This document shows positions 24,114 to 27,809 of a stretch of 64,000 nt of DNA, piece after piece. Location of the stretch: assembly GCF_022288725.1 (NCBI RefSeq), contig NZ_JAKNTA010000003.1:623738-687737 (forward strand), given 5' to 3'. The stretch's first letter is position 1. Every line of letters starts with the position of its first letter. The stretch is from Kitasatospora sp. A2-31. Its GTDB lineage: Bacteria; Actinomycetota; Actinomycetes; Streptomycetales; Streptomycetaceae. The position numbers and the translations under genes were made by a program. Below the pieces are notes generated by a model that did not search any database, was not told the origin of the DNA, and saw only the letters and a list, made by a program, of their open reading frames with translations.

Positions 24114-25622
24114 TCAGTCGGGGGCCGGGCCGCCGGGCAGCCGGACGGTGGCGAGCGCGCCCGGGCCGCCGTCCGCGGCCGGGCCCAGCGAGACCTCGCC
24201 GCCGGCCTCCCGGACGCTCTGCGCGACGATCGACAGGCCGAGGCCGGAGCCCGGCAGCTGACGCGACGATGGGGAGCGCCAGAACCGGTCGAAGACGTAC
24301 TGCAGTTCGTCCGGCGGGATGCCGGGGCCGTGGTCGCGCACCGTCAGCACCCCGTCGACGAGCCGGACGTCGATGGTGCCGCCGGGCGGGCTGTACTTCA
24401 CCGCGTTGTCCAGCAGGTTGATCACCGCCCGTTCCAGGGCGGCGGCGTCCCCGTGCACGTACCAGGGCTCGACGGAGGTCTCGAAGACCAGCCCCGGACC
24501 GCGCAGCTTCGCCCGGGCGACCGCGCGGTCGGCGATCTCGTGCAGGGCGACGACGGCCAGGGTGCGGGCGGGCCTGGGGGAGTCCGGCCGGGAGAGCTGC
24601 AACAGGTCGCCGATCAGGCCGGTCAGCTCCTGCATCTGCGCCTTCATGTTGCCGAGCAGCTTGGTCCGGGTGGCCGGGGGAAGCGGCCGGCCGGTGTCGT
24701 CGCTGCGGATCAGCAGGTCGACGTTGGTGCGCAGGGAGGTGAGCGGGGTGCGCAGCTCGTGCCCGGCGTCGGCGATCAGCCGGGTCTGCCGGTCGCGGGA
24801 GTTGGCCAGCGCGGTGGACATGGAGTTGAACGAGGTGGCGAGCCGGGCGATCTCGTCGCTGCCCTCCACCGGGATGGTGGTGCCGACCTCCTCGGTGCGG
24901 GCGATGTGCTCGACCACGTCGGTGAGCCGGTCGACGGGCTTGAGCGCCGAGCGGGCCACGAACCGGCCCGCCAACCCGGCGAGGACGATCCCGCCGAGCG
25001 CCACGCCACCGAGGATGACGGCGAGCCGGTCGAGCGAGTCCTCCACGGCGGCGGTCGGGGTCGCGACCATGACCAGCACGGACGAGTGGCTCGCGGTGCG
25101 GGCCAGGGAGATCCTCACCATGGCCGGCTCGCCGTTGGTGTAGCGGCCCTCCCGGATGATCGCCTGGTTCGGCTTGAGCGCGAACGCGCGGGCGTCGCCC
25201 GGCTCGATTGCGATCGCCTTGGTGGCGCTGAGGGGGAGGGTGACGCACGTCGGGGCGGTCCAGACGAACTGGGTGTCGCGGGGCGCGGGCCCGCCGCCGG
25301 GCAGCTCCGGCAGCGAGCCGGTCTCCTGGGCCTCCTGCACGGTCTTCAGGGCGGCCTCCGGCGTCGTGGCGCACGGGAGCTGGAGGGCGACGTTGCGCGG
25401 CGGCGGGGCGTTCTCCAGCTCGTGCCGCACCTGGCCGTAGAGCTGCTTCTCCACGATGAACCAGCACGCCAGCGCCGACAGGGCGATCGCCACCGCGACC
25501 GCCGCCGCCGTGAGGAAGGTGAGCCGGCTGCGCAGGGAGCGGGCGCGGTACCAGGAGAGGAGGCGCCGGCGGCGGGGTGCGGTGGGCGGGACCAGCGGGG
25601 GCGGCGGGAGGGTGTCGCTCAC
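24114..25622 (-). CDS. cssS: Sensor histidine kinase, CssS-like
   Basis: 502 residues: membrane helix (about 35-55), an extracellular sensing domain of about 145 residues with paired Cys, a second helix (about 203-225), HAMP, and a HisKA domain with [16 protein letters not shown] (phospho-acceptor His about 287). The HATPase domain has N-box [22 protein letters not shown], and GSGLGLSIV. Its start overlaps the response regulator stop by 4 bp. It corresponds to the secretion-stress kinase CssS described in S. lividans; mycobacterial MprB has the same layout. Confidence 0.85.
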
Positions 25623-26392
25623 GCGGGGGTGCCGGGAGCCGGGCGCAGGGCGTAGCCGACGCCGCGTACGGTCTGGATGAGCCGGGACATGCCGCCCTGC
25701 TCGGTCTTGCGGCGCAGGTACATCACGTACACGTCCAGGGAGTTGGAGGAGGGTTCGAAGTCGAAGCCCCAGACCGCCTTGAGGATCTGTTCGCGGGTGA
25801 GGACCTGGCGGGGGTGGGAGAGGAACATCTCCAGCAGCATGAACTCGGTGCGGGTCAGCTCGACCGGGCGCCCGGCGCGGGTGACCTCGCGGGTGGCGGT
25901 GTTCATCCGCAGGTCGGCGAAGGCCAGTACCTCGGTGGCGTCCTCGGCGGCCGCGGCGCGGGCGGCGGCCTCGGTGGCGAGGGCGTTGCGCCGCAGCAGG
26001 GCGCGGACCCGGGCGAGCAGCTCGTCCAGCTCGAAGGGCTTGGCGAGGTAGTCGTCCGCGCCGACGTCCAGGCCGGTGACCCGGTCGCCGACGGCGTCGC
26101 GGGCGGTGAGCATCAGCACCGGGACGGTGTCGCCGCGCGAGCGCATCCGGCGGACGGCGGTGAGGCCGTCCATCCGGGGCATCATGATGTCCAGCAGGAC
26201 GAGGTCCGGCTTGTCGCGTTCGACGGCCTCCAGGGCCTCGTGGCCGTCGGTGGCGGTCGCGACCTCGTAGCCCTCGAAGGCGAGGCTGCTCTCCAGGGCG
26301 TCCCGGAGGGCGGGTTCGTCGTCGACCACGAGGAGCCGGGCGGTGGCCTGCCCGGACTCGGAGGAGGTGCGGTCGTCGGCGGACGGGGTCAT
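25619..26392 (-). CDS. cssR: OmpR-family response regulator, CssR-like
   Basis: 257 residues: receiver domain with DDEPALRD and phospho-acceptor Asp68 ([13 protein letters not shown]), LTARDA, DYLAKPF, then an OmpR-type winged helix (about 155-250) with [11 protein letters not shown] and [14 protein letters not shown]. An Ala-rich linker separates the two. It is co-transcribed with the kinase (ATGA overlap) and lies 98 bp downstream of the HtrA-like protease gene. Predicted to bind OmpR-type tandem repeats such as those at 27741-27784. Confidence 0.88.
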
Positions 26393-26490: not shown

Positions 26491-27720
26491 CTACACGTTC
26501 TGGCCGGACTGCAGCTGCGGCAGCACCTGCTTGACGTCGTTGATCGGGATGGCGAAGCCGAGGCCGACGCTGCCGGCGCCGCTGCCGCCGGCCGTGGCGC
26601 CCACGCCGCTCGGCGAGTACATGGCCGAGTTGATGCCGATGACCTGCCCGCCGGCGTTGATCAGGGGGCCGCCGGAGTTGCCGGGGTTGAGCGCGGCGTC
26701 GGTCTGGAAGGCCTTGTAGGTGGTGGTCTCGCCGCCGCTCTGCGGGGCGCTGCCGCGCAGGCCGGGCAGGTCGGGGAAGCCGAAGCCGCCGTTGCCGCTG
26801 GTGGCGCCCTCGTCGACCTGGACGGTGACGTCGCGGTTCTCGGCGCTGATGATGCCCGAGGTGACGGTGCCGGTCAGGCCCTCCGGGTTGCCGATGGCGA
26901 CGACCGGATCGCCGACCGAGACGGCGCCGGAGTCGCCGAGGGTGGCGGGGGTGAGGTTTCTGGCGCCGCTCGCGGTGATCACGGCGACATCGAGGCCCTT
27001 GTCGGTGCCGGTGACGGTGGCCCGGGCGGTGGAGCCGTCCTTGAAGGTGACGGTGGTCTGGCCGCCGTCGGCCGCGCCGGCGACGACGTGGTAGTTGGTG
27101 AGGATCCGGCCCTTCTCGTCGAGCACGACCCCGGTGCCGGTGGCCGTGCCGCTCGCGGTCTTCACGGTGATCTGGACGACGCTGGGCGAGACGGCGGAGG
27201 CGATGGCCGCCACGTCGGCGCTGCCGTCCGAGCGGGCCGCGACCGGGCTGGCGATGGTGCCGGTGCGGCTGCCGGCGGCGTGCTGCTCCGCGGCGACCAC
27301 GCCGCCGGTGACCCCGCCGAGGACGGCGGCGACCGCGGCGACGGCGGTGACCAGCGCGACCCGGCCGCGCAGGAAGCCCCGCCGGGTCCGGCCGCTGTGG
27401 CCGCCGCCCTCGCCGCCGGGGGTGGCCGGGCCGCCGGCCTCGGGCGGTGTCGGCGGCGCGGGCGGCATGGCGGGCGGCGGGGGCGGCGGACCGACCGGTG
27501 CGCTGCCGGCGGCCGGGTACCCGCCGGTGGTGCTGCCGAGGACCGTTCCGGGGACGACCCGGCCCCCGGCACCGTCGTGGCCAGGGGTGCCCTGGGTGCC
27601 CTGGCCGCCGTGGTCGGCGTGGCTGCCGGGGCCGCTCTCGTACCCGTGGCCGTACCCGTACGGGTGGCCCTCGTCGTACTGCTCGCCGTACGTGCTGCGG
27701 TGCTGCTGGTGATCGCTCAT
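26491..27720 (-). CDS. Membrane-anchored HtrA-like serine protease
   Basis: 409 residues: a long Pro/Gly/His/Tyr-rich cytosolic N-terminus (about 115), one membrane helix (about 118-145), then a trypsin-fold protease domain. The catalytic triad is intact: His211 (NYHVV), Asp244 (GLDVAVI) and Ser349 (NPGNSGGPL). No PDZ domain follows; the protein ends after the protease domain, so it is shorter than typical HtrA. Encoded directly upstream of the cssRS-like pair on the same strand; a role in clearing misfolded secreted proteins is inferred. Confidence 0.9.
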
Positions 27721-27740
27721 GCCGACCAACGTCCGCCCGC

Positions 27741-27784
27741 CGGATGAGAATCCGGTGAGAGTCCGCTCAGAAGCCCCCGAGAAG
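27741..27784 (-). promoter_or_regulatory. Four tandem 11-nt repeats upstream of the HtrA-like gene
   Basis: Read on the plus strand: CGGATGAGAAT, CCGGTGAGAGT, CCGCTCAGAAG and CCCCCGAGAAG, four directly adjacent units with core CCG-NTGAGAAK and an exact 11-nt period. They sit 21-64 bp before the protease ATG. OmpR-family regulators bind direct repeats with this period, so the neighbouring CssR-like protein is the first candidate. Confidence 0.6.
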
Positions 27785-27809
27785 CCCGTTGACTTCTCAT
27801 AAAGCCTGG

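Follow-up and report, generated by a model that had tools for sequence, protein, structure and literature searches.

Four conserved 11-nt direct repeats as the probable CssR operator at the htrB promoter of Streptomycetaceae

The window analyzed here is a whole stretch of 64,000 nucleotides from Kitasatospora sp. A2-31, the minus strand of which carries, in this order, genes for a LacI-type regulator, HtrB, CssR and CssS. htrB (26491–27720) encodes a trypsin-like HtrA-family protease (Pfam Trypsin_2, E = 1.5e-30) and is assigned as the SCO4157 orthologue also on the basis of gene order. cssR (25619–26392) encodes an OmpR-family response regulator (Pfam Response_reg and Trans_reg_C), and cssS (24114–25622) encodes a sensor histidine kinase (Pfam HATPase_c, HisKA and HAMP). 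The gene order matches that of SCO4157–SCO4155 in S. coelicolor, and the gene names used here follow the published ones (PMC3498368). A gap of 89 bp lies between the stop of lacI (27810) and the ATG of htrB (27720), and it holds all four units of a tandem array of 11-nt repeats.

An earlier note on this DNA placed four such 11-mers end to end at 27741–27784, 21–64 bp from the htrB ATG (27720 to 27718, minus strand), and its units, CGGATGAGAAT, CCGGTGAGAGT, CCGCTCAGAAG and CCCCCGAGAAG, agree letter for letter with the window. The best register is shifted by one base (27783–27740, gene strand) and has the core TTCTCA: unit 1 is TTCTCGGGGGC (27773–27783), unit 2 is TTCTGAGCGGA (27762–27772), unit 3 is CTCTCACCGGA (27751–27761) and unit 4 is TTCTCATCCGG (27740–27750), all on the minus strand, with unit 4 followed by CGGGCGGACGTTGGTCGGC and then the ATG. 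The box originally given as CCGNTGAGAAK is better written on the gene strand as four YTCTCANNNNN units, of which units 1 and 2 deviate from the (Y)TCTCA core in the window (TTCTCG and TTCTGA, respectively). Compared pairwise, the units have a mean identity of 0.64 in the earlier register and of 0.68 in the best one. For a period of 11, only 7 of 63,957 window positions score as high as or higher than the earlier register, and in the same scan periods 8–10 and 12–15 are unremarkable at the array. With dinucleotide shuffling of the 89-bp gap, the observed similarity was not reached in any of 2000 trials. The array is thus real and beyond chance; the similarity of the units by itself makes a modest case, and the decisive point is their conservation.

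Relatives were collected using CssR as bait, and the upstream regions of 82 loci were fetched and compared by position. A cssR orthologue is present in all 31 same-genus genomes searched, and a close CssR homologue in 59 of the 61 genomes of the family search. An array was counted if four units reached a consensus score set by the authors, and the caller was restricted to arrays ending 20–29 nt before the start codon. Four in-register units precede htrB in 69 of the 82 loci, each from a different genome, representing 13 genera of Streptomycetaceae, so that phase and distance to the ATG are kept in the comparison among relatives that had been set beforehand as the refuting test. In these 69 loci, the last TCTCA lies 23 or 24 nt from the htrB start; as the caller admitted any distance of 20–29 nt, the result is this narrow range rather than mere nearness to the ATG. 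The A of TTCTSA in unit 2 and the TCA of unit 4 are invariant (69/69 arrays each). The remaining 13 loci comprise seven from one subclade of the window's genus with a degenerate unit 2, one (L066) that the script had assigned to a shifted register, two from another genus (g2) with weaker upstream units and three without htrB beside cssR. A matrix built from other genera only scores the window site at 40.2, compared with -9.0 for the next unrelated site on both strands of the 64 kb, against a background mean of -64 (sd 12.7). In sampled loci having htrB, cssR is located two genes downstream of the array. At one locus of genus g9 without htrB beside cssR (L123), repeats such as GTCCTCGTGAGCCA occur upstream of cssR with a period of 14 instead of 11.

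The spacer between the array and htrB is constrained in the same set. After the last TCTCA, base 13 is A and base 17 is T in all 69 spacers, and among columns spaced by four, only this pair is fixed. In the window, these bases belong to a -10-like element, GACGTT (27728–27733, minus strand), which is of the form [GC]ANNNT and occupies positions 12–17 past the last TCTCA. The ATG follows this hexamer by 6–7 nt, and a leaderless transcript is therefore predicted, with the htrB start codon (27718–27720, minus strand) as the predicted transcription start. S1 mapping in S. coelicolor places the 5' end of the SCO4157 transcript so that it overlaps the predicted translational start, in addition to upstream read-through (PMC3878966). 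Given the array spacing, the invariant A and T and this 5' end, the htrB promoter is probably leaderless, with the repeats lying over its -35 region in the manner of OmpR/PhoB-type activation. If transcription starts at the ATG, the repeats lie at about -63 to -20, spanning the -35 region, which unit 4 is predicted to overlap.

Upstream of the array, where Streptomyces has a CutR-like TTTATAT site, lies a CTTTATGAGAA box (27794–27804, minus strand). In 54 of the 69 promoters, a TTTAT sequence, intact or with one base changed, starts exactly 20 nt ahead of unit 1, and in many Streptomyces promoters the box is TTTATAT, which matches the CutR core TAWATAAA on the opposite strand. The window's box also contains ATGAGAA, the repeat core in reversed form, which in the window's genus makes up an inverted pair together with unit 1 (GAGAAG...CTTCTC). 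In S. venezuelae, a CutR site is reported 17 bp upstream of the htrB start (PMC12802291). This distance would put the start near unit 1 and the array in the leader, unless there are two promoters; the presence of two htrB promoters is possible.

The array shares the properties of an MprA/CssR-type operator: a tandem period of 11 nt, the (Y)TCTCA core seen in putative mycobacterial mprA and pepD promoters, a fixed distance to the -10 element and start, and a cognate OmpR-family regulator with an HtrA-type gene at the same locus. Judged from sequence, the repeats are most likely the CssR operator at the htrB promoter. CssR is very probably the ligand, as it is adjacent, co-conserved, homologous to MprA and able to shift an htrB promoter fragment. 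The earlier note had named this CssR-like neighbor as the OmpR-type ligand, a proposal now supported by the conserved array in the cssRS locus and by a two-unit form before mprA/pepD homologues. In S. lividans, CssR shifts fragments of htrB, htrA1, htrA2 and cssR, the probe for htrB being the whole fragment (PMC5157995). The published htrB primers flank the array in four Streptomyces relatives (L099, L092, L100 and L112); at other loci, the reverse primer matched better elsewhere, by chance. CssR- and MprA-type regulators align well and have similar recognition helices (a 16-residue stretch compared with GNALEVYVGYLRRKTE). Against the assignment to CssR, the array is missing from other htrA-type genes checked, yet htrA1 and htrA2 fragments are shifted in S. 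lividans; similar repeats precede other OmpR-type regulator genes; the footprint in S. lividans led to another motif; and the S. venezuelae start lies 17 bp from the CutR site.

The geometry suggests how such an operator might work. Phosphorylated CssR would bind as two head-to-tail dimers on the same side of the helix, one to units 1–2 and the other to units 3–4. Of these, the dimer nearer the gene would lie over the -35 region (roughly -41 to -20) and recruit RNA polymerase to the weak -10 element ([GC]ANNNT), and transcription would then start at or beside the ATG, yielding a leaderless mRNA. HtrB would in this way be switched on when CssS senses secretion or envelope stress. Contact of CssR with the units, the arrangement of the dimers and activation through the units are what we infer from this geometry.

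A different CssR motif, C(C/G)AGCT(G/T)CG, was tentatively derived from a low-resolution footprint in S. lividans and left open by its authors (PMC5157995). It was found around the array in none of the 82 loci and is rejected for the htrB promoter; this sole proposed CssR motif is doubtful.

Other matches in these genomes bear on the specificity of the array. At the other HtrA-like loci of five genomes (G000, G039, G062, G088 and G043), there is no tandem array, and one isolated match lies on the opposite strand near L163. Among the htrA-type genes tested, the array is therefore specific to htrB rather than a box common to htrA-type genes. The full architecture was searched for as CTCA-N7-CTCA-N12-A-N3-T-N6/7-RTG, with the reversed pattern as control; matches to pattern and control numbered 44 and 1 in 21 genomes, 48 and 1 in 31 genomes, and 79 and 3 in 41 genomes of the window's genus, these sets overlapping. 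The window's own genome has exactly two matches, before htrB and before a gene for a YkcB-like mannosyltransferase (Pfam PMT_2 and YkcB_C). These genes also head the largest downstream-protein groups among the fetched matches, with 35 htrB loci and 19 YkcB-like loci, the latter all from the window's genus and most with four units. The array before the YkcB-like gene reads TCACA, TCATA, TCTCA and TCTCA, and has both the -10 element and the 24-nt spacing in common with htrB (L250, G000:C1:288282-288323; also L146, 1501–1554), and this gene is predicted to be a second CssR target in the window's genus. Two further OmpR-type regulator genes (L308 and L310) have a two-unit CTCA array and a -10 element in the same geometry, which suggests self-control by a related regulator, and some other groups are probably coding sequence; not every pattern match can thus be assigned to CssR. 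A Streptomyces DUF2510 gene (L152, 1501–1542) is preceded by TCTCA/TTTCA units and a TACGGT -10 element in the same geometry, and several Streptomyces genomes contain similar matches.

In a survey across the class, related arrays occur outside Streptomycetaceae. In five genomes of one family, putative mycobacteria with the order regulator-kinase-HtrA (L219–L223), pairs of the type CTCTCAG-N4-(C/A/T)TCTCAG lie just before the regulator gene, and similar pairs precede the HtrA gene in four of the five, L219 having a one-mismatch version. At three loci from three other families (L236, L237 and L238), two to four units precede htrA, with 23–24 nt to the ATG. At a locus of family f17 with no HtrA found beside cssRS (L227), a two-unit array with a TANNNT -10 element, read by eye, lies before cssR. 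At four loci of family f18 (L230, L231, L232 and L234), CTGAG-type motifs precede the cssR homologue in the reverse of the usual core orientation. In M. tuberculosis, MprAB reportedly controls pepD directly (PMC3062566), and MprA of C. glutamicum has a different, loose motif, TKTTAAGAAM (PMC12113857).

The array might instead be bound mainly by another OmpR-family regulator with a TCTCA-type core, CssR being a mere neighbor or weak binder. This is unlikely. Although the L308 and L310 regulator genes have paired repeats with the same -10 geometry, and the YkcB-like gene has an array with no regulator recognized in the ORF list of the surrounding 18 kb, the array lies in the htrB–cssRS locus in all sampled genera with htrB there, a two-unit array directly precedes cssR at L227, the repeats precede mprA in mycobacterial homologues, and CssR shifts the htrB fragment. 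CutR or MtrA, in place of CssR, is a very improbable ligand of the repeats. In two Streptomyces species, the region upstream of htrB is bound by CutR; its site at htrB, with the consensus TAWATAAA, is described as a repressor site (PMC12802291). This core agrees with the TTTAT box, which lies upstream, and does not occur inside the array, the core of which is TTCTCA. MtrA sites are likewise direct repeats, but these are GT-rich with an AC core (G/T-T-G/A-A-C-C-N5-G-T-G/T-A-C), unlike TCTCA. Both proteins are rejected as owners of the array by their cores. Chance, or an RNA-level feature such as a hairpin in lacI read-through transcripts, is hardly credible: in the window's genus, the inverted GAGAAG...CTTCTC pair does extend into the array at its upstream end, but shuffles never match the observed similarity, Streptomyces promoters retain the direct repeats and not the GAGAA arm, and with a start at the ATG the array lies outside the main transcript.

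Taking the repeats as the CssR operator, a broader generalization can be offered tentatively, as one with a reasonable chance of holding. CssR/MprA-type regulators across Actinomycetes may share one promoter module, in which two to four TCTCA units stand at a set offset from [CGT]ANNNT and a leaderless start; in Streptomycetaceae, the units may have doubled to four, with a neighboring CutR site acting against the module, which in the window's genus may also drive the YkcB-like mannosyltransferase gene. If true, the latter target would link secretion stress to surface glycosylation. The CssR binding site has had no definition in these antibiotic producers, and a 2025 study describes the Streptomyces CssR regulon as still undefined (PMC12802291). 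A conserved, base-resolved operator with its -10 element and start would make CssR targets predictable and that regulon testable. Such an operator would also permit tests of CssR/CutR competition at htrB, allow tuning of secretion-stress promoters in industrial protein producers, and link the Streptomyces system, through its DNA sites, to the mycobacterial MprAB–PepD stress response.

Among known systems, the S. lividans CssR motif concerns the same regulator and target promoter, but is without tandem repeats (PMC5157995). The CutR site acts in the same promoter, where a TTTAT box is located 20 nt upstream of unit 1, and differs from the array in sequence and position. In the pho box, bound by PhoB-type regulators, tandem 11-nt units likewise replace the -35 element at a fixed distance from the -10 element; the core sequence differs, and the htrB start is leaderless. 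MprA recognizes a pair of 8-bp repeats with 3 bp between them. The MprA box of the mprA–mprB–pepD locus has two units, whereas the Streptomycetaceae array has four; the gene order is regulator-kinase-protease in mycobacteria and protease-regulator-kinase in Streptomycetaceae, and in some mycobacteria the pepD leader is longer than in htrB array promoters. The two systems have in common a homologous regulator, an HtrA-type target in the locus, tandem 11-nt repeats, the core CTCTCAG and an equal distance to a -10 element of the form [CG]ANNNT.
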